NCBI GenBank assembly: GCA_025453925.1 | Contig: JALOPK010000077.1 | Span: 1 to 11,707, forward strand | Direction: 5' to 3' | DNA length: 11,707 nt | Source: Candidatus Eiseniibacteriota bacterium | GTDB taxonomy: Bacteria > JAFGKV01 | In this document: positions 1 through 11,707 of the stretch, in pieces | How the letters are laid out: each line of letters opens with the position of its first letter | Numbering within the stretch: position 1 is the first letter of the stretch | The notes under the pieces: model-generated | The model's database searches: none | Told to the model about the DNA's origin: nothing | What the model saw: only the letters and a program-made list of their open reading frames with translations | Program-made: the position numbers and the translations under genes

Positions 1-312
1 CCGGTCATAGGGTTCTCGCTCCTGGACCAGCGGGGCGCCGTCGCGTTCGGCAGTAACACCCAGATCGAGGGTTCGGCGGTCGATCTCTGTGGGGAGGGCG
101 TGATCGAGATCGGCATTCGACGGCTTTCGCTCCTGTCCGGCCTGTTCTATGTCGGCTTCGCGGCCCATTCCACCGACCAAGCGGTGCAGTATCACCGTTT
201 TGACAACTACTACAGCATCATCATCGACCCTCGCAGGAGCTTCGATGGCCGCGTTGACATGGAGTGCCGCTGGCGGATGCTTCCGACCGGCAACGAGGTG
301 CGCGGTGACTGA
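1..312 (+). CDS. wzt: Wzt-type polysaccharide ABC transporter ATP-binding protein, C-terminal carbohydrate-binding domain (5' partial)
   Basis: The reading frame is open from the first base to TGA at 310-312, giving the last 103 residues of a protein whose start lies off the window. The pattern matches the Wzt C-terminal domain: an early segment PVIGFSLLDQRG, then FGSNTQ, a central IEIGIRRLSLLSGLFYVGFA strand pair, and a closing YHRFDNYYS segment. In E. coli O9a and relatives this beta-sandwich sits behind the ABC ATPase domain and binds the capped non-reducing end of the O-polysaccharide, coupling chain termination to export through Wzm. Walker motifs are not visible because that half is missing. 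The next gene starts inside its last codons, and the following genes encode coiled-coil and methyltransferase proteins, as expected for a termination-coupled exporter. Family assignment is fairly secure; the ligand is unknown. Confidence 0.82.
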   Translation, partial: PVIGFSLLDQRGAVAFGSNTQIEGSAVDLCGEGVIEIGIRRLSLLSGLFYVGFAAHSTDQAVQYHRFDNYYSIIIDPRRSFDGRVDMECRWRMLPTGNEVRGD

Positions 313-1012
313 GGTGCGCCCCAGTGACGAGCTCGATGTCCGCGAGATCCTGCGCGCGATTCGCGCGGAGGTTTCCGCTCCCGCGGAGGAGCCCGCCGAA
401 GATGCTGCGACTTCGCACAATGATCTCCAAATCCTGCGGTCTCAGCACGACATACGGCGATACGACCTATCGACCGACAAGTCCTTCGCCCCGCTGGTGA
501 TTGGCGCGAAGCGGTTGGTCGAGGCGGTGGTCCGACCCTACGCGGGACACTTCCTCGACAAGCAGGCCCACTACAATGCGGCACTGAACCGGGTCGTATC
601 CCGGATTCTGGCGGAGATTGAGGGCGTGAGCCAGCAGTTGACGACAATCCAAAATGAGCAGAAGGCGCTGCAGCAACTGATCCGCACCGACATGGACGAC
701 CTTCGATCGCGGCTGGAGCGTCTCCGTGGCGAGATGGCCCAGCGGCACCAGAGCCTTCATCATGCGCTCCATGCCGGTCTGGAGGAGCAGGACCGCAGGT
801 CCGCGGAGCGCGAAGAGGTTGGGCAACAGGAACTGCAAGAGGCCGCCATTGGCCTCCAGCGCAATCTGGCGGAGGCCGTGGATCGTCTACAAGTGCGACT
901 GGCCGAGGTCGAGCACAAGACCGTGGAGAGCCAGAAGGATGTTCAGGACCGCCTGTCCCGTGAGATCGCCGCGGTCGTGGACTTCATCGAAGAGGTGCTC
1001 CCGGCGCTGTAG
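305..1012 (+). CDS. Coiled-coil protein associated with polysaccharide export and termination
   Basis: The protein has 235 residues from GTG at 305, which overlaps the upstream stop by 8 bases and has GAGGTG at 295-300 as a possible ribosome site. An in-frame ATG at 149 would add 52 low-complexity residues lying wholly inside the Wzt frame, so I rejected it. Residues 9-23 (ELDVREILRAIRAEV) resemble the short amphipathic helix that opens many cluster-encoded methyltransferases and glycosyltransferases. Residues 58-95 carry a compact module (KSFAPLVIGAKRLVEAVVRP, then a FLDKQAHYN segment) that I recognise as usually preceding a coiled coil in such proteins. Residues 88-230 are almost uninterrupted charged heptad-like helix rich in Q, E, R and L. 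There is no catalytic motif, signal peptide or membrane span. It probably acts as a scaffold or ruler subunit paired with the next gene product; that role is inference. Confidence 0.75.
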   Translation: MTEVRPSDELDVREILRAIRAEVSAPAEEPAEDAATSHNDLQILRSQHDIRRYDLSTDKSFAPLVIGAKRLVEAVVRPYAGHFLDKQAHYNAALNRVVSRILAEIEGVSQQLTTIQNEQKALQQLIRTDMDDLRSRLERLRGEMAQRHQSLHHALHAGLEEQDRRSAEREEVGQQELQEAAIGLQRNLAEAVDRLQVRLAEVEHKTVESQKDVQDRLSREIAAVVDFIEEVLPAL

Positions 1013-1035
1013 CCGAGGGGCGTACCGCAATTCTC

Positions 1036-1043
1036 AGGGAGGA
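1036..1043 (+). promoter_or_regulatory. Strong ribosome binding site for the methyltransferase gene
   Basis: AGGGAGGA lies 4 bases before ATG 1048. It shows that the methyltransferase is translated as its own polypeptide and is not simply a frameshifted continuation of the coiled-coil gene that ends at 1012. Confidence 0.7.
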
Positions 1044-1047
1044 AGTC

Positions 1048-2502
1048 ATGGCGTCAGGGAAGGGACCGGCCGGCTCAGCGCCGGAGATGGCCCGCGGGAA
1101 TGACGGCACCGTCAGCATTGCCGCAAGGCTTGAGGCCATCCGGTCCAAGACCAGAGCCAGCGAAGAGCGCATGGATGCGGTCCTGCGGTCCATCGAGGAG
1201 GTTCGGTCGGAGGTCAAGGATCACGTCGCCGCAACTCAGCGCGACTTGGCTGAGCGCGTGCAGACCGCCGAACGGAAGAGTGTGGAAATCGAGGCGAGGC
1301 TCTTGGACATGCAGCAGGGAGAGCATGGGCTGCAATCGCAAGTAAGCACGGCGGTGGACTTGATGAAGACAGGGCTTGATCGTCACATGCAGGAACTCGG
1401 CCGGGAGCTGGCGGGGCGACTGGAAAGCATGCAGCGGAGCGAACAGGAAGTCGAGGGTCGGGTGAAGTGCTTTGAGGCCATCGGCGACCGGCTCAAGGCA
1501 ATGATCAGTGCGACCGAGAGCGTCGGCCCTCAGCTCCGCGAGCTTCTTGGGGCCGTTGACGATATGCGCACGAATCTTGGCGTGAGCATTGACGCCATCG
1601 GAACGGTGCGCGATGACGTCCAGGGCAGTATCGCTACCCTCACGAAGGCCCAGGCTGATCTTGGCGCGCGTCTCACGCTGTTGGAGACAGGGCTGAGCGA
1701 AGCGCGGGCGGAGCTTGCTGCTTCGGCCGGCAGACTGAGCAAGGAACAGGAGAACGCGCTGCAGAGTGCCCTGGCGCCAATCGATCGTCGTGCGACGGAG
1801 GCACGGCAGCTATCCGTCCTTGCGCCGGGCGATTTTCCCTATTTCCGCTTCGAAGATCTCCATCGGGGGAGCGCCGAAGCCGTCAGGGACCTGATTCGCC
1901 CCCTGGTTCGCAACTTCGTCCGATGTCAAATGGTCGTGGATCTTGGCTGTGGCCGTGGCGAGTTCCTTGATCTGTGCGTGCAGGAAGGGATCGGCGCCTA
2001 CGGTGTTGACTCCAATGAGGACATGGTTCTTCACTGTCAGCGCATTGGCCTCGATGTCGTGCGCGATGATATCGTGGACCACCTCCGCGGGCTCAAAGAG
2101 AAATCGGTGGACGGCGTCTTCTGTTCGCAGGTCGTGGAGCACCTTCCGATGCTCAAGGTGCAGGCACTGCTGCGCGAGTGTTTCCGCGTGCTCAAGGTCG
2201 GCACCCACATGGTCCTGGTGACGATCAACCCTCTGTCGCTCTATGCACTGGCGAACAACTTCTACCTCGACCCAACCCATGTGAGGCCGCTCCCGCCCGA
2301 AACCATGCGGTTCCTGGCGGAGGATGCGGGCTTCCGGAAACTGTCCGTCTCCTATTTCTCTCCGTTCGGCCCGGACTACACGCTGCTGCCGGTGCGGTTT
2401 GAGCAGGAGAGCGAGGAGCAGCGCGCCATACGCGTGAACTTCGACAGGCTGAACCACGTCGTGTTCGGCAACCAGGAATACGCACTCATTGGCCTCAAGT
2501 AG
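1048..2502 (+). CDS. Coiled-coil / SAM-dependent class I methyltransferase fusion
   Basis: The protein has 484 residues from ATG 1048, preceded by AGGGAGGA. Residues about 20-260 form long helical, heptad-like stretches with few prolines and read as coiled coil. A linker (FPYFRFEDLHRGS, from about 263) leads into a Rossmann methyltransferase domain: SAM-binding motif I DLGCGRG at 298-304, an acidic post-I segment GVDSNEDM, the SQVVEHL motif around 360-366, and a beta-hairpin LKVGTHMVLVTINP. A DPTHVRP signature at 408-414 is common in O-antigen-locus methyltransferases. There is no kinase domain. By analogy with WbdD it may methylate the terminal sugar and stop chain growth, with the helix setting distance from the membrane. 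In WbdD, however, the methyltransferase is N-terminal and the coil C-terminal. It could instead modify an internal sugar. The fold call is firm; the substrate is unknown. Confidence 0.88.
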   Translation: MASGKGPAGSAPEMARGNDGTVSIAARLEAIRSKTRASEERMDAVLRSIEEVRSEVKDHVAATQRDLAERVQTAERKSVEIEARLLDMQQGEHGLQSQVSTAVDLMKTGLDRHMQELGRELAGRLESMQRSEQEVEGRVKCFEAIGDRLKAMISATESVGPQLRELLGAVDDMRTNLGVSIDAIGTVRDDVQGSIATLTKAQADLGARLTLLETGLSEARAELAASAGRLSKEQENALQSALAPIDRRATEARQLSVLAPGDFPYFRFEDLHRGSAEAVRDLIRPLVRNFVRCQMVVDLGCGRGEFLDLCVQEGIGAYGVDSNEDMVLHCQRIGLDVVRDDIVDHLRGLKEKSVDGVFCSQVVEHLPMLKVQALLRECFRVLKVGTHMVLVTINPLSLYALANNFYLDPTHVRPLPPETMRFLAEDAGFRKLSVSYFSPFGPDYTLLPVRFEQESEEQRAIRVNFDRLNHVVFGNQEYALIGLK

Positions 2503-4594
2503 ACTCACGATCCTCGCCCCTCAGCCGGGGGTGAACCGTGGCTACTGGGTGAGCTTCGTGGGGGAGATGCTCAGGCGGCTTACCGCCGAGTACGAAACCG
2601 TGGTCGTCGAGAGTCCCCACGGCCCCTTGCACACCGCAGCCACCCCGGGGGACGAAGTCGTCATCGGAGTCGCTCCGTCGCGGGAGACCGTGCCACCGCC
2701 GGGACCGCATGTCTGGATCCCACGCATCGGTGAACCAGTTGAACGCACGCACCCCTGGTCCTCTGCCGGCGTGATCTTGCTCCCCTTGGGCGTCGGCGCC
2801 GTAGATGCCAGCCTCCCGGTGACCCACCTTGGGGCCGGCCTCCCTCATGCTGAAGGACAACCCGACAAAGCCGGGCCCCACCCCGCCGATAACGTCCCCG
2901 GAATCATCAAAGTAAGGCCCGATGGGGAAGACTGCGTGACGTCGTTCCTGGCGGCTCTTGCCAAGGGATGCATACCGATCGTCCCCGCGGATAGCCCACT
3001 GCTGGCGTATCTCTGCGAGCGATGGAAGCTGGGCCTCCCCTGCGGGGATGAGTCGGAGGCGACTGCGGCGCAACGGTACCTTGAGGGCAACCCAACCGTT
3101 GCGCACAGGATGAGCGACGCCGGCCGCCGCTTCATCACGCGATCGCTTTCATGGCCCAGGGTGTATCGGCGTTTCCGCGCAGGCGTTCGCGCCGTCGAGT
3201 CACCGCTGGCCGTCACCCATGTGATCGTCCTGAACTGGAACGGGAGAGACCTCCTTCCCGACTGCCTCGAGTCACTCCGTGATCAGTGCTATCCCCGCAT
3301 GGTGCCGGTGGTGGTGGACAATGGCAGCGGTGACGGCAGTCCCGCCTTCGTTGCCAGCGTGTTCCCGGAGTGCCGTGTCATCGTGAATCGCAGGAACCTC
3401 GGCTTCGCCGAAGGGAACAACGTGGGCATGCGGGTTGCCATTGAGGAGCGCGCCGAGCATGTCGTTCTGCTGAACAACGATACCAGGGTCGCACGGGGGT
3501 GGCTCAAGGCACTGATTTCCCGCGCCGGCGAGAGCGCGGACATAGGTGCGGTGGGTTCGCGAATGCTGTTCTTCGACAGACCCCGTACCGTGAACAGCGC
3601 GGGGGGGGCAATGAACCAGTCGCTGTATGGCTGGGATCGCGGTGTGTTCGAACATGATGCCCGCAAATGGCGCCAACCGGAGGATTGCCTCTCGGTCACC
3701 GGCGGGTCCGTTCTCCTCCGCGTCGACGCCCTGCGTGCATCCGGACTTCTCGACAAAGTCTACTTCGCTTACTACGAGGATACCGATCTCTGTCATCGGA
3801 TCCGCCTGGCAGGCTGGCGCGTCGTGTACGCACCGGCGAGCAAGGTGTTTCACAAGCTCTCGGCGACCTCGGGTCCGGTTTCTGAATGGAAGACCTTCCT
3901 CCTGGAACGCTCCCGGTATCGGTTCATCCTTAAGAACGTGCCGCTCAGCTATCTCGCACGCCACGGCAACCGGCTGCTGGGGCAGGAGTGGGGAGAACTC
4001 CAATCGTGGTGGAGAGCTCGCGAGTACCGTCGCGTCCTCGCGCAGCTTCGGGCGGCCTTCTCCGCGTGCGCCAAACTGCCGGGAATCGTTGCATGGAGGG
4101 TGCTCAGCGGCTCCGGGCGGGACAGTGACTGGACGGCCGAGCTCACCCCCGGCTTCGCGCGCCCCTCGTTCCCCGGTGCAGATGAGGAGTTCGCTGACCT
4201 GTATGCCGGGATGACGCCCGAGGGCCGCACCATCCCCACCTGTGTGTGCACGTCGTTGCGGGGCGAGTGGTCGGCGGTGCAGGCGACCTTCCCCAAGGTT
4301 CGGATGATTGGTGGGTGGTGCGCGCTCAACATGACCAACCACCGAATCGCCGAGGGCAATCTCCAGGTCCACCTCTTCCTGCCTCCGGATAGGTCCTCGG
4401 CGGAGCTCACCCTTCTGTGCCCGCCTGAGGGGCCACGGACCGTGACCATCCCCCATCCAGGATGGCACACTCTCATCCTTCCGATCCGGAACGTGCCCGC
4501 CCGCGCGGTGGTTGAGCTCTCGGCATCGCATCCTTTAGGGATAAACGAAGTGAGCCTGCTGCCGTCGGGGAGTGCCCTTCTGCGAAGCGGCTGA
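2489..4594 (+). CDS. Multidomain glycosyltransferase: degenerate GT-B-like N-terminus, GT2 catalytic domain, beta-rich C-terminus
   Basis: The protein has 701 residues from TTG 2489, overlapping the previous gene by 14 bases with AGGA at 2474-2477 upstream. GTG 2531 is an in-frame alternative but would cut into the first beta strand (LTILAPQ). Residues 1 to about 235 look like a shortened GT4-type GT-B fold. The place of its E-x7-E motif is occupied by E147 with A155 in the second position, so this half may be inactive. Residues about 241-500 are a GT2 (GT-A) domain of the rhamnosyltransferase-like type: VIVLNWNG from 245, VDNGSGD, the NNDT metal and nucleotide-sugar motif at 329-332, and EDTDLCHR at 430-437. 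Residues about 550-700 are beta-rich, ending in a segment with PGWHTLILPI, resembling a small sandwich domain seen behind similar transferases. It is probably cytoplasmic, adding a sugar to the growing glycan. Donor and linkage are unknown. Confidence 0.85.
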   Translation: MASSRLTILAPQPGVNRGYWVSFVGEMLRRLTAEYETVVVESPHGPLHTAATPGDEVVIGVAPSRETVPPPGPHVWIPRIGEPVERTHPWSSAGVILLPLGVGAVDASLPVTHLGAGLPHAEGQPDKAGPHPADNVPGIIKVRPDGEDCVTSFLAALAKGCIPIVPADSPLLAYLCERWKLGLPCGDESEATAAQRYLEGNPTVAHRMSDAGRRFITRSLSWPRVYRRFRAGVRAVESPLAVTHVIVLNWNGRDLLPDCLESLRDQCYPRMVPVVVDNGSGDGSPAFVASVFPECRVIVNRRNLGFAEGNNVGMRVAIEERAEHVVLLNNDTRVARGWLKALISRAGESADIGAVGSRMLFFDRPRTVNSAGGAMNQSLYGWDRGVFEHDARKWRQPEDCLSVTGGSVLLRVDALRASGLLDKVYFAYYEDTDLCHRIRLAGWRVVYAPASKVFHKLSATSGPVSEWKTFLLERSRYRFILKNVPLSYLARHGNRLLGQEWGELQSWWRAREYRRVLAQLRAAFSACAKLPGIVAWRVLSGSGRDSDWTAELTPGFARPSFPGADEEFADLYAGMTPEGRTIPTCVCTSLRGEWSAVQATFPKVRMIGGWCALNMTNHRIAEGNLQVHLFLPPDRSSAELTLLCPPEGPRTVTIPHPGWHTLILPIRNVPARAVVELSASHPLGINEVSLLPSGSALLRSG

Positions 4595-4596
4595 CC

Positions 4597-5850
4597 ATGC
4601 ACCTCCTTGTCGTTACGCCGCTCTACTGGCCCGATGAATCGGGTGCCACCCGGCTGCTCCGGGGTTATGCGGAGAGCCTTGCCGCCATGGGCCACACGGT
4701 CGAAGTGTGGACGACCGATGCGGCCGAGAATCGCGCGTTGTACGATCCCTGCGCGGCCCAGACTCCCGCCCGGGCGGCAACCCACGGGGGAGTGAGAGTT
4801 CGCCGGTTTCGGCTCTGGCATCCCGTTGACAAGCACCGAGCATTCACCAAGGCCTTCCGCATGCCTTTGCCCGGCTCCGGCTACGTGTTCGATGCCCCTC
4901 ATGTCGCATCCCTTTCCCTGCAGCGTGCCGCGTTGCTGTCCCGGCAGTCCTTCGACATGGTGTTGGCCGGCTATCTTCCTTTCACGGGCTTCATCCATGC
5001 CGGGGCGGTCGTGGCGAAGCGCCTCGACATTCCCCTAGTCGTGTTGCCGCTCCTCCATCTGGGGGAACCCAGCGACCATACGCTGCTCGCGGCATTCGGG
5101 CGTCCTCTGCAGCGCCGAGTGCTTCATCGGGCAGATATGCTGCTCGCCAACACCGAGGTCGAGGCGACCGCACTCAGGCGATGGGGTATCGAGCCCAGGC
5201 GCATCGCCGTTGTCGGGGCAGGATTGGATCCTGATTGCCTGAGAAACGGATTGCCTTCCCGCTTCAAGAAGCGCTTCGGCCTCCACCACCCGATAGTATT
5301 CCAGATCTCCACGCAGACCCACGACAAGGGATCTCACCATGTTGTCGAGGCCATGAAACAGGTGTGGGGCGCGGGAATTGAAGCCCATCTGGTCATGGCT
5401 GGCAGTGTCCTTCCGGACTTCGACGACTATCTGTCGCATCAGCCAAAGGAAGTGCTCGAGCGGCTGGTCTGCGCGGGGCATCTGGAGGAGCAATCCAAGA
5501 ACGATCTCCTTGCCGCGGGGGATGTGATGGTGATGATGTCCAGGGCGGAGAGTTTCGGGATCGCGTATCTAGAGGCCTGGCTGTACGGGAAACCCGTGAT
5601 AGGCTGCTACGCGGGTTCGCTTCCCGCGCTTATCTGGGATGGAGTCGACGGATTCCTTGTGCCGTTCGCAGATGTTCATATGCTTGCCGAGACCCTACGA
5701 ATCCTCCTGACGCGGCCCGATCTTCGGGCACAGCTTGGCGAGGCGGGAAAGTCCAAGGTGGCCGCTTCGTACCTCTGGAGGCAGCGGATGGAGAGGCTTC
5801 TGCGTGCCTTGCGCACGGTGGATCGACGGAGAGAATCTTGCACAGAATAG
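4597..5850 (+). CDS. GT4-family glycosyltransferase
   Basis: The protein has 417 residues from ATG 4597, 2 bases after the preceding stop, so translation is probably coupled. The N-terminal Rossmann half starts with LLVVTPLYWPDESGATRLL and the AMGHTVEVWT strand typical of retaining GT-B enzymes. The C-terminal half has a donor-binding DKG at 243-245 (the usual position of the R/K-x-K-G or similar diphosphate contact) and the E-x7-E pair at E318 and E326 in ESFGIAYLE. The GKPVIG and DGVDGFLVP segments follow as normal. Length is ordinary for GT4. There is no membrane span or signal peptide, so it is expected to act on the cytoplasmic face, using a nucleotide sugar to extend the polysaccharide. 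All key residues are present, so it is probably active. The sugar transferred cannot be read from sequence. Confidence 0.9.
   Translation: MHLLVVTPLYWPDESGATRLLRGYAESLAAMGHTVEVWTTDAAENRALYDPCAAQTPARAATHGGVRVRRFRLWHPVDKHRAFTKAFRMPLPGSGYVFDAPHVASLSLQRAALLSRQSFDMVLAGYLPFTGFIHAGAVVAKRLDIPLVVLPLLHLGEPSDHTLLAAFGRPLQRRVLHRADMLLANTEVEATALRRWGIEPRRIAVVGAGLDPDCLRNGLPSRFKKRFGLHHPIVFQISTQTHDKGSHHVVEAMKQVWGAGIEAHLVMAGSVLPDFDDYLSHQPKEVLERLVCAGHLEEQSKNDLLAAGDVMVMMSRAESFGIAYLEAWLYGKPVIGCYAGSLPALIWDGVDGFLVPFADVHMLAETLRILLTRPDLRAQLGEAGKSKVAASYLWRQRMERLLRALRTVDRRRESCTE
5828..5834 (+). promoter_or_regulatory. Ribosome binding site supporting a TTG start
   Basis: GGAGAGA lies 3 bases before TTG 5838, inside the end of the upstream glycosyltransferase gene. 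Together with the immediate GT-B opening strand (HRIGIDISR) it supports the TTG as the true start. Confidence 0.55.
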
Positions 5851-6980
5851 GCATTGACATATCCCGGACCCTCGGGCAGCCCGGTGGGGTAGGCTGGTTT
5901 GTCGATCGGTATGTCCGTGCCCTGGCGACTGTGGATTCGACGAACCACTACACGTTCTACCCTTTCTTCTGGTTCTGCCATCCCCGCGAGTACCGAGACG
6001 CCTTCCGGCCATCCCACCCCCACTTCCGGGTTCATGACCTGAACAGGAGTTTCGAAGATCTCAGGCAGCGTTGGTCCGGCCAAGGCCTCACCCCCCGCGA
6101 ACTGCTCGGTCCCATCGAGTTGCTCCATTCTCCGGGATACACGGCACCCTACGTGCCGGGGATCAAGCTGTGTGTCACCATTCACGACATGAGCTTTCTC
6201 ACCCACCCGCATTTCCACACCGAGGAGAACCGGCAGTTCTGCATGGTGCAGTCCATGCGGGCTGCTCGCCTCGCCGATGCGATCTTGTGCGATTCCCAAG
6301 CAACCGCGGATGACGTGAGACGCTATCTGCACGTGCCTTTGGAGCGGCTCTTCGTGGTCCCCGGCGCGGCAGGGCCTGAGTTCAGGAGGCTCACCGACGC
6401 CCGAGCCATCGCGGCGACGCTGTTCCGGCTGGGAATCACGGAGAACTTCCTGCTGTTCGTCGGGACCGTCGAACCACGGAAGAACCTTGCGACGCTGATC
6501 GAGGCTTTTGCCCGGGTGACGAAAGGGACTCAGCGCCCGGAGCTCCTGGTGATCGCCGGCGGTACGGGGTGGAAGAACGACCAAGTCTATGAGCGGGTCA
6601 GGGAACTCCGGCTGGAGGCCGCCGTCCGTTTTCTGGGCTACGTCACCGTGGAGGATCTGGTCGTGCTCTACAACGCCTGCCGCGCGTTTGTGTATCCCTC
6701 GCTCTATGAGGGATTCGGGCTTCCGGTACTGGAAGCAATGTCCTGCGGGGCGCCGGTGATAACGTCGGGGGTGTCCTCGCTTCCGGAGGTAGCAGGCGAC
6801 GCCGCACTGCTACTCGACCCTCGTGACACGGATGCGCTCGTCGACGCGATCTGCGCCGTGCTTGACGACTCAGGGCTTCGGTCTGGATTGAGGACCAAAG
6901 GCCTGGAAAGATGCCGCCGGTTCTCCTGGGAACAGACGGCCAGACTCACCGTTGAGGTTTATCGGAGGTGCCTTGCGTGA
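5838..6980 (+). CDS. GT4-family glycosyltransferase (mannosyltransferase-like)
   Basis: The protein has 380 residues from TTG 5838, overlapping the previous gene by 13 bases. It opens with a strand RIGIDISR and the glycine loop GGVGWF (residues 16-21), which replaces the usual GGIG motif. The middle has HDMSFLTHP, a conserved stretch of this GT4 subgroup. The donor site shows GTVEPRKN with R214, K215 and N216, and the E-x7-E pair is E291 and E299 in EGFGLPVLE, followed by the APVITSGVSSLPEVAGDAA segment. This pattern is close to the WbdA/WbaZ-like and other mannosyl- or rhamnosyltransferase-annotated GT4 enzymes of O-antigen loci, but donor specificity is a guess. It is soluble and expected at the inner membrane cytoplasmic face, extending the same glycan as its neighbours. 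It looks intact and active. Confidence 0.9.
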   Translation: MHRIGIDISRTLGQPGGVGWFVDRYVRALATVDSTNHYTFYPFFWFCHPREYRDAFRPSHPHFRVHDLNRSFEDLRQRWSGQGLTPRELLGPIELLHSPGYTAPYVPGIKLCVTIHDMSFLTHPHFHTEENRQFCMVQSMRAARLADAILCDSQATADDVRRYLHVPLERLFVVPGAAGPEFRRLTDARAIAATLFRLGITENFLLFVGTVEPRKNLATLIEAFARVTKGTQRPELLVIAGGTGWKNDQVYERVRELRLEAAVRFLGYVTVEDLVVLYNACRAFVYPSLYEGFGLPVLEAMSCGAPVITSGVSSLPEVAGDAALLLDPRDTDALVDAICAVLDDSGLRSGLRTKGLERCRRFSWEQTARLTVEVYRRCLA

Positions 6981-9093: not shown

Positions 9094-11707
9094 CTACGGA
9101 AGCAGTACAACCCTCTGGGCGCGGGTCGCGTCAACGCCCTGGATCCGCACCAGGTAGGCACCGGCCGCGGGGGCGCCGAAGGCACCGACGTCAATGGACA
9201 CGTGATGGATGCCGGGGCGCAACGTGCCCAGATTCAGCACGCCGAGCCGGCGACCCGCCAAGTCAACCAGTTCGGCCCGCACGGGCTGACTGCTGCCTAC
9301 CGAGAGGGTGAGCGCGATCCGACCATTTGCCGGGTTCGGGCTGAGCGACTCAAGCGTCAGGTCTCCGGGTAGGCCTGGATGCGTATCCGAGCCTTGTCCC
9401 TGGAAGCCCAACGTGAAGTTGATGTTCGACGAAGGGGCCGGCACCTGCGTCGCGTCGAACGGTGGGTCAACGTAGGGCATGAAGCCGAAGAAGTAGTAGT
9501 AGCCGAAGGGCATCAGGTAGCCGAGTTCGAGGGGCAGGTCAAAAGTGTCCAGCTCCTCATACCATTCATCGGTAATCGCGATTCCCGAATCTGGGTTCAA
9601 CATGCCATAGTACAGCCATGAGAACAGGCTCCACGTTCGCACGTAGTGAGTGCTTCCGTTGAAGAGACTCCGGATCTCGTAGCGCCCATTCTGCCAGGGA
9701 TCGTCGGTAGCGGGGTTCACCCCGCTGGCAGCGAAGCCCGAGAGATGCCCGGTCAGGTCATATGACGCCACGACCACCCAGTTCAATGGAGATCCGTCGT
9801 CTTGCCTCGTCACCATGCCGCTGATGGTCGCGTTGCCTGGTTCCAGCGTGATGTTCACGTCGGAGGCGAAGACCTGACCGGCGGTGAGCGTCACCGACCC
9901 ACCCTGATCGAAAGTATGTCCGCCGCCGTAGTAGCCAACCGCGGCCGGTGCTCCGTACGGCACCGCCGCGACTTTGACCGCCCGAGCAGGCAGGCGTCTG
10001 ATCCGGTATCCCGCGCAGAACGTGTTGTTGTCGTCAGTGTAGACAGGCGCCTCATCGGAGACCCCTATGCCGACAGGATAGCCCAACTGAGCGTCATAGG
10101 CGATCAGCACGACCTCGGTATCCCTGTCACCTGCGGGGGAGCCGCCGGGCAGCGACACGAAGCCCTGTACGATGGCTTCCCTGTCGAGCTGAACGTCGAT
10201 TCCGGTGGTCGTCTGTCCGTCGGTGACCTGCACAACCGTTGCCGCGTCGAAATTGAATGCTCCGCCATGATACTCGGAGCAGTAGCCGATCTCATCATAG
10301 CCCGCGGGGTACGCCGACACCCACACTCTGTAGCCGCCGGTCGGGAGCCCGGCGATGGTGTAGGTGCCGTCATCGTTTACCATGCTGGGGAAGAGGAACC
10401 ACAAACCGAGGTCGCCCTGCGTCAGAAGCTCCTCGGGGTAGGCGATGACGAACTCCACCTCTTCCGTTGTGGCGGGTGCGCCGCCGACGAGGGTCACCCG
10501 TCCCGAGATACGCCCTCGACTGGGAAGGAAGAAATCGATGCCGTCGGCGGTTCCGGAGGCCGGGACTGATACCACCGATGCGTCTTCGAAGGACAAGGCA
10601 TTGTCGTAGTACAGGGGGAGCACGGGGAACGGAATGCCCTGAAGCGCGACCTTGTAGTCGCCCTCACGCAGCCCTCCGAGGGTGTACTCACCGAGGCCCG
10701 AAGTGAACGTGTATGCTACCGAGCGGAGGCTGTCATCAGGGGGGTAGGCCCACACGATGAAGAACGCGTCGGTGAACGCATCCGATATGTCCGAGGCGAT
10801 GGTTCCATTGATAGATCCGCCCGGCGAAAGCACGAAGTCGATCCCGGAGGTGGTCTGGCCAGGCTCGACCTGCACCGGGTCCGCTGTCTCAGCGCTGGGC
10901 TTGTCGTCCCAGTACTCCGCGGCATAGTCGGGCAGGATGAAGCCGGGGAACGCCCGGATGAGATACTGCCCGGGAGGAATGCCGTTCAACTCATAGGCAC
11001 CGTCAAACATGGAAAATGTCGTGGCGATGTAGTCGTCAGCGCCCACCGGGTACGCTTCGATCTGCACGAACATCCCAGGGGTCCCATCATCCAACGTCAC
11101 CACACCGCTTATGTTCCCGCCCGGCGGCATGTCGAACTGGATGCCGGAGATGGTCTGATTCACGGTGGAGAGAGTGAGGGACTGGGCGGCCATAGGATCG
11201 CCGGTGTTCGGGTAGTAGACCATCGCGTAGTTCTCTACCCGGCAGTTCATGTAGAACGTTCCCAACGGAATCGGCCCGATGGTCGCCTGCCCGCTCCCAT
11301 CGGTCTGCAATCCAAAGCGCAAGGTGCGCCCCTGATCCAGTAGCTCATTGTCTTCAGTGGGCAGGTAGGGGAAGAGCTCGAAGTCCGCCGCGGTGTTCGC
11401 CAGCGGCTGCCCCGCGCCGTCCCTGATCGTTACCGCCACATACCCGCTATTGCTCTGGAGGTCGAAGTTCACCCCAGTGGCAGTGCCGCCTTCGGTCACG
11501 GTCACTTTGGTGGCCTGCGGCCACTGGGTGACGTTGTTGTAGAACTCGTTGATAACCGTGCCCGTTTCCGCGTCGTAGCCCCAGCCTTCGCTCAGGAAGA
11601 AGACGTAGTATTGGCCGGGCGGAAGATCGTCCAATTCGTACTCTGGACCGGAGGATTGCCACCAGAGGTCCGAGGCAGCCACAAAGCCGTAGTGATCAAG
11701 CGCGAGC
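9094..11707 (-). CDS. Secreted multi-repeat surface protein with Por/type IX-like C-terminal sorting domain (5' partial)
   Basis: The frame is open to the right edge: reading leftwards from 11706, residues LALDHYGF precede a GTG at 11682, so the start is off the window and at least 870 residues are visible. Most of it is a chain of diverged beta-sandwich repeats of the carboxypeptidase-regulatory/CnaB-like type, each with an opening G-x-I-x-G-x-V strand, a mid Y-x-[IL]-x-G-[LI]-P-x-G-x-Y motif and a closing GIDF-L strand. The last 90 residues (about 9097-9370) hold LSPNPANG, VRAELVDLAGRRL, a GIHHVSID turn and GAYLVRIQG, the pattern of T9SS type A or FlgD-like C-terminal sorting domains that are cleaved during export to the surface. 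No enzyme motif is visible. It is probably an adhesin or structural exoprotein. It converges on the polysaccharide operon, so it is a separate unit. Confidence 0.85.
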   Translation of the reverse strand, partial: LALDHYGFVAASDLWWQSSGPEYELDDLPPGQYYVFFLSEGWGYDAETGTVINEFYNNVTQWPQATKVTVTEGGTATGVNFDLQSNSGYVAVTIRDGAGQPLANTAADFELFPYLPTEDNELLDQGRTLRFGLQTDGSGQATIGPIPLGTFYMNCRVENYAMVYYPNTGDPMAAQSLTLSTVNQTISGIQFDMPPGGNISGVVTLDDGTPGMFVQIEAYPVGADDYIATTFSMFDGAYELNGIPPGQYLIRAFPGFILPDYAAEYWDDKPSAETADPVQVEPGQTTSGIDFVLSPGGSINGTIASDISDAFTDAFFIVWAYPPDDSLRSVAYTFTSGLGEYTLGGLREGDYKVALQGIPFPVLPLYYDNALSFEDASVVSVPASGTADGIDFFLPSRGRISGRVTLVGGAPATTEEVEFVIAYPEELLTQGDLGLWFLFPSMVNDDGTYTIAGLPTGGYRVWVSAYPAGYDEIGYCSEYHGGAFNFDAATVVQVTDGQTTTGIDVQLDREAIVQGFVSLPGGSPAGDRDTEVVLIAYDAQLGYPVGIGVSDEAPVYTDDNNTFCAGYRIRRLPARAVKVAAVPYGAPAAVGYYGGGHTFDQGGSVTLTAGQVFASDVNITLEPGNATISGMVTRQDDGSPLNWVVVASYDLTGHLSGFAASGVNPATDDPWQNGRYEIRSLFNGSTHYVRTWSLFSWLYYGMLNPDSGIAITDEWYEELDTFDLPLELGYLMPFGYYYFFGFMPYVDPPFDATQVPAPSSNINFTLGFQGQGSDTHPGLPGDLTLESLSPNPANGRIALTLSVGSSQPVRAELVDLAGRRLGVLNLGTLRPGIHHVSIDVGAFGAPAAGAYLVRIQGVDATRAQRVVLLP
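9420..11452 (-). repeat. Tandem array of about six diverged CarboxypepD-reg-like protein repeats
   Basis: Repeat units begin (going down the - strand) near 11452, 11122, 10823, 10519, 10180 and 9838, a spacing of about 300-340 bases (100-114 residues). Each starts with a strand like GGNISGVVTL, GGSINGTIAS, RGRISGRVTL or GNATISGMVT and ends with GIDFVL or similar. The copies are diverged at DNA level, with no obvious identical tract, so this is an old protein-level array and not a recent tandem duplication. The last unit, downstream of 9838, is longer and degenerate, with an aromatic-rich insert around 9470-9620. Confidence 0.7.

Follow-up and report, generated by a model that had tools for sequence, protein, structure and literature searches.

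P0001 and P0002 are, with a probability of about one half, the separately encoded halves of a widespread chain terminator for glycans exported by Wzm/Wzt. Their likeliest function is predicted to be that of a kinase-free capping methyltransferase, which a coil keeps off the polymerase. The window, which is the whole stretch of DNA analysed, is one entire contig (C475; 11,707 bases) from a fragmented assembly of 3.9 Mb in 502 contigs.

The plus strand encodes, in order, the end of wzt, P0001, P0002, a GT2-type and two GT4-type glycosyltransferases, a small secreted protein, and a membrane protein. The contig edge cuts wzt, so that the sequence begins inside the gene, and the remaining 3' end (1..312, plus strand) encodes the carbohydrate-binding domain at the C-terminus of the ABC-transporter ATPase (Pfam Wzt_C against window positions 1-309; E 2.7e-9, profile 49-143). 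The free helical protein P0001 (305..1012, plus strand; 235 aa, GTG start) overlaps the stop codon of wzt (GTGACTGA). The coil-methyltransferase P0002 (1048..2502, plus strand; 484 aa) follows a Shine-Dalgarno-like AGGGAGGAAG read from the sequence (1036..1045, plus strand). This trio lies where the first-pass annotation had placed it. The GT2-type gene (2489..4594, plus strand; Glycos_transf_2, 7.5e-17) in turn overlaps the P0002 stop codon. Because of the two overlaps and the ribosome-binding site that P0002 has of its own, the genes from wzt through GT2 look like one operon. The two GT4-type genes are found at 4597..5850 and 5838..6980 (both plus strand; Glycos_transf_1, 9.1e-23 and 1.9e-37, respectively). 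A large gene on the minus strand (9094-11682) encodes repeated CarboxypepD_reg domains and has a weak C-terminal match to Por_Secre_tail (E 0.015), which makes its product possible type IX secretion cargo. An end related to this gene is found close to the same cluster of glycan genes in a second genome, G002 (L037 1-837).

P0002 is composed of a helical/coil region (residues 24-255; 1117..1812, plus strand) and a class I SAM-dependent methyltransferase domain (residues 265-483; 1840..2496, plus strand), the latter supported by conserved columns and the match to PDB 3DLI. AlphaFold2 places helices at residues 24-90, 96-125, 128-227, and 232-255, and models the methyltransferase at about 265-483 confidently. 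A COILS-type scan assigns 114 residues to coil (24-96 and 196-236), while 100 shuffles give a mean of 3.1 and a maximum of 43. Thus, the roughly 240 residues of coil originally described in P0002 hold as helix, but only about half of them score as coiled coil. The enzyme belongs to Pfam Methyltransf_23 (E 3.3e-14), and its closest solved structure is 3DLI, with 41% identity, a Z of 30.9, and an rmsd of 1.8 over 220 residues. An alignment of 12 diverse relatives (A1) contains 22 invariant columns. P0002 retains the conserved positions of the family (GCGRGE, EH, TxN, and DxxHxxPxxP), and the SAM motif of its methyltransferase fold is intact. No kinase was matched in P0002, in the neighbouring genes scanned, or in 20 relatives, as had been noted from the first reading. 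With no kinase present, the predicted cap is a simple O-methyl group, for which O8 WbdD and the proposed activity of WsaE are precedents. P0002 is proposed as the capping enzyme.

P0001 contains 108 coil residues in the same scan (91-146 and 164-215; mean 8.75 and maximum 61 in 100 shuffles), and the adjacent glycosyltransferase, scanned for comparison, contains 0. Its AlphaFold2 model shows a short helix at residues 12-24, a second helix, and then one helix that spans residues 62-234, with pLDDT mostly >95 from about residue 100 on. Ordinary searches with P0001 match its own family alone, and a profile from relatives in which an N-terminal module, coil, and methyltransferase are fused is needed to reach beyond it. 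This N-module profile, made from 26 fused relatives with Fermentibacteria left out, matches P0001 with an E of 2.4e-11 and two P0001 homologues with 3.4e-16 and 5.2e-13. The best E among 200 shuffled P0001 sequences is 1.4. The profile does not match P0002. By homology, then, P0001 is a free-standing N-module and P0002 is the methyltransferase half.

The N-module corresponds to P0001 residues of about 9-100 and is not described in Pfam or NCBIfam. In the fused relatives, the start of the extension carries the motifs xDVxEIMxxIRxxV and SHRxxxGxxIxxxKKxxRxxxxxYxxxxxxxQxxFN. Motif 1 of P0001 (LDVREILRAIRAEVSA; 329..376, plus strand) lies in the short helix 12-24 and aligns with xNVEEIMxxIRENI of fused relatives. 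Motif 2 (SFAPLVIGAKRLVEAVVRPYAGHFLDKQAHYN...; 479..604, plus strand) is a basic hydrophobic helix in which Q87 and N91 are invariant and Y79 and F90 nearly so (alignment A2). In several Firmicutes, motif 2 forms a markedly amphipathic basic helix, with moments of 0.59-0.76 that are exceeded in at most 10% of shuffles and mostly in <2%. The moment of the helix in the window is 0.52, a value matched by 16% of shuffles and hence not beyond them. P0001 is proposed to be a membrane anchor or polymerase docking subunit.

The order wzm-wzt-P0001-P0002-GT2-type protein is kept in two other genomes, G001, a member of Candidatus Fermentibacteria from the same genus, and G002, which belongs to the same family, with GT4 genes located further on. 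The exporter is of the O-antigen type: the window has the Wzt_C end, both of the other genomes have whole wzm and wzt genes, and the full-length Wzt homologue in G001 contains ABC_tran and Wzt_C (1.1e-25). The conservation of the trio with its exporter, which the first-pass annotation had proposed to check, is thus borne out. The two parts are encoded by two genes, not as a single polypeptide, in all three genomes of the lineage. Protein identity to the window genes is 68-74% in G001 and 53-66% in the more distant G002, and is distributed unevenly. The methyltransferase is 85% (G001) and 72% (G002) identical and motif 2 of P0001 is 81% and 71% identical, whereas identity in the P0002 coil drops to 50% and 30%, and its alignment contains many gaps. 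The residues ahead of the enzyme number 274 in G001 and about 150 in G002. A fast-evolving coil with conserved ends is the pattern that would be expected of spacers.

Two further features of these loci were considered. The linker between the ATPase and the binding domain of Wzt is 185 residues long in G001 (L036 7668-9458) and 107 in G002 (L037 10608-12179), compared with 10-68 residues in the other Wzt proteins compared, with alignments that placed Wzt_C ahead of the ATPase end left out. Wzt was rejected as a third coil protein, as this long linker has no coil in the COILS-type scan. Directly upstream of wzm are two very large genes in G001 (L036 1-6891) and G002 (L037 12961-19899), one CARDB-rich and the other with Peptidase_C25 (E 2e-42 in G001). 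The adjacent Peptidase_C25 gene was likewise rejected as evidence of a connection with type IX secretion, because C25 is too common in this lineage (14-23 matches per genome; none in 14 control genomes) for adjacency to be informative.

The usual form of the protein is a single chain, ordered N-module, coil, and methyltransferase, which is found in archaea, Firmicutes, and other bacteria. Most relatives of the methyltransferase, drawn from 80 named loci and from other genomes, have an N-terminal extension, with a median of 218 residues (n = 82 proteins). At least 28 coil-scored residues precede the enzyme in 79% of these 82 proteins, and 7% have them within or after it. In 47 of the 81 tree rows, the N-module and a methyltransferase of this family are part of one polypeptide, and the fused gene is often directly after wzt, including in methanogens and Firmicutes (L050, L052, L072, L079, and others). 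The first-pass annotation correctly placed the P0002 coil on the opposite side of the enzyme from that of WbdD, since it precedes the methyltransferase, but treated the reversed order as special to this locus. Judged from the sequences compared, it is the normal layout of the family across archaea and bacteria, which leaves the split as the only local peculiarity. That P0001 and P0002 correspond to a single chain in relatives argues that the two work together. Spacers in the fused proteins range from about 3 to 446 residues, and at the short end of this range a ruler function is difficult to envisage.

Other arrangements occur in the same family. In a Burkholderiales locus (L123 9404-10513), the methyltransferase is directly after wzt and its coil is C-terminal, which is the polarity of WbdD; both polarities therefore exist within one family. 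DUF4214 lies ahead of the coil and methyltransferase in L128 (8747-10654), L044 (8391-9980), and L046 (8686-10113), Pfam-confirmed only in L128 (E 2.6e-6). In these three loci it apparently replaces or accompanies the N-module.

Linkage to Wzt, defined as a Wzt within three genes upstream, was counted for proteins whose upstream sequence extends over at least 2.5 kb. Wzt is near 28 of 46 fused-module proteins, 6 of 6 splits, and 3 of 23 module-less proteins. A fused or free module compared with none gives 34/52 versus 3/23 (p 4e-5), in a sample that is not a census because it comprises the 80 loci closest in similarity to the query and about ten others. The first reading would be refuted if homologues of the methyltransferase were mostly away from Wzt, and the answer is mixed: they are so where the module is absent, but not where it is present. 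Many relatives, mostly from Acidobacteria and Aminicenantes, have no Wzt nearby, so the methyltransferase is not confined to ABC export. These relatives, together with those that have almost no spacer, argue for a different reading, in which P0002 methylates sugars within the repeat unit, the coils merely assemble a membrane enzyme complex, and length is set otherwise. This alternative is unlikely, though the strongest of those considered. It does not account well for the strong Wzt link where the N-module is present, for the presence of a carbohydrate-binding domain at the C-terminus of Wzt, a type that is known for reading end caps, or for a layout that is the same as that of known terminators apart from polarity.

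The split arose at least twice, in this lineage and in Ruminococcus-type Clostridia. In the latter, the same N-module profile detects free modules, 152-170 residues long, in the order wzm-wzt-methyltransferase (without module)-free module-GT4 (L122, L127, L107, and L077). On the tree of 81 methyltransferase domains the split needs two origins, which well-supported branches force. Of the 9 Wzt-adjacent methyltransferases that lack a fused module, 6 have a free module nearby; of the 28 that have a fused module, 1 does (Fisher p 2e-4, which overstates the evidence, as the rows come from related genomes and are non-independent).

The N-module is held by 35 of 386 genomes spread over the domain. 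Of 18 small free modules with a downstream gene in view, 12 have a glycosyltransferase gene directly next, against a background of 10% of all genes in free-module loci. Free modules are also common next to GT4 genes where no methyltransferase of this kind is visible, as would be expected if P0001 were a general glycosyltransferase scaffold that does not contact P0002, the two being neighbours because both serve the same glycan. We regard this as improbable, given that the module is so often covalently joined to this very methyltransferase family and that free modules occur where the Wzt-adjacent methyltransferase lacks one. Although coil sequences weakly match many unrelated families, it is highly implausible that P0001 and P0002 are unrelated ordinary coiled-coil proteins brought together by chance, as the N-module homology is far above shuffles and the order is conserved in three genomes and recurs independently in Clostridia.

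A possible third split arrangement is seen in L171 (9036-12013), which encodes, in order, wzm, wzt, a free N-module, a 1094-aa glycosyltransferase, a GT4, and a 579-aa protein with an N-terminal methyltransferase. The N-module profile also matches inside larger proteins of different types in L176 and L187 (about 740 aa), L178 (770 aa), and L185 and L190 (409-415 aa), two of which are beside primase-like genes. These matches may represent further uses of the module, or amphipathic stretches that resemble it.

If P0001 and P0002 are the halves of a chain terminator, the N-module would be at the membrane, holding the glycosyltransferases that extend the lipid-linked chain. The coil would distance the methyltransferase, so that only a sufficiently grown chain would be methylated at its growing end. 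Methylation would end growth, and the carbohydrate-binding domain of Wzt would then admit the chain to export. Because both split parts carry coil, the halves would have to meet through it, either end to end (122 + about 260 residues) or side by side. The position of the N-module at the far end of the coil and the association of free modules with glycosyltransferases suggest the same geometry as in WbdD with the opposite chain direction. Capping, the position of the cap, ruler action, membrane anchoring, polymerase docking, and a P0001-P0002 complex are what we infer from these comparisons, and the interpretation in the first-pass annotation is partly supported. The natural split makes the ruler testable, since both parts can vary separately.

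A broader claim is somewhat more tentative than the assignment of P0001 and P0002. The fused and split proteins may form a widespread, undescribed class of glycan chain-length rulers that mirrors WbdD, with a membrane/polymerase module at the N-terminus, then a coil, and a kinase-free capping methyltransferase at the C-terminus. This class would be present in archaea, Firmicutes, and Gram-negatives, and would have been divided into a ruler of two subunits on at least two occasions. No prior description of the fused family was found in the open-licence literature, and it may be mentioned elsewhere. To our knowledge, how the length of ABC-exported glycans is controlled has been worked out in detail for just a few enterobacterial systems, and in each of these the enzyme precedes the coil. 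If the broader claim is true, the ruler idea would extend to methanogens and Gram-positive bacteria, and the un-annotated N-module would mark glycan-assembly complexes in many genomes.

In characterised terminators, the enzyme is at the distal end of the coil, away from the polymerase (PMC11231755). WbdD of E. coli O9a/O8 and K. pneumoniae O3/O5 resembles the present pair in combining a methyltransferase with a long coil in a Wzm/Wzt glycan locus, and the far end of its coil bears a membrane helix and the polymerase docking site (PMC11231755, PMC3482155). However, WbdD is ordered methyltransferase-(kinase)-coil-membrane end, whereas here the N-module and coil come first, the enzyme is C-terminal (residues 265-483 of 484 in P0002, with the coil ahead), and the protein is split. 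P0002 has no match to the kinase domain of O9a-type WbdD; O8 WbdD is a simple methyltransferase (PMC3482155). The structure matches listed for P0002, including the solved structures closest by sequence, contain neither WbdD nor the other known terminators, but this absence does not show that the folds differ. In K. pneumoniae, ORF6 (O7) and WbbB (O12) likewise integrate a terminator enzyme, a coil, and a polymerase in ABC-dependent assembly, but the enzyme is N-terminal and the glycosyltransferases are C-terminal in the same chain, with a kinase in ORF6 and a Kdo transferase in WbbB (PMC11231755). WsaE of the Geobacillus stearothermophilus S-layer system is a kinase-free methyltransferase next to wzm/wzt, for which capping by 2-O-methylation is proposed (PMC2943079). 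Compared by description, its methyltransferase is N-terminal and fused to two rhamnosyltransferase domains, unlike P0002, in which the methyltransferase is the only enzyme domain. The chain of 3DLI, from Archaeoglobus fulgidus, is numbered 253-473, which suggests that it is the C-terminal part of a longer protein with the same layout; it is known from its structure. The fused proteins beside Wzt share with the window the same module, methyltransferase family, and position after wzt. They are one chain with a median spacer of 89 residues, whereas P0001 and P0002 are two chains with 122 + 260.
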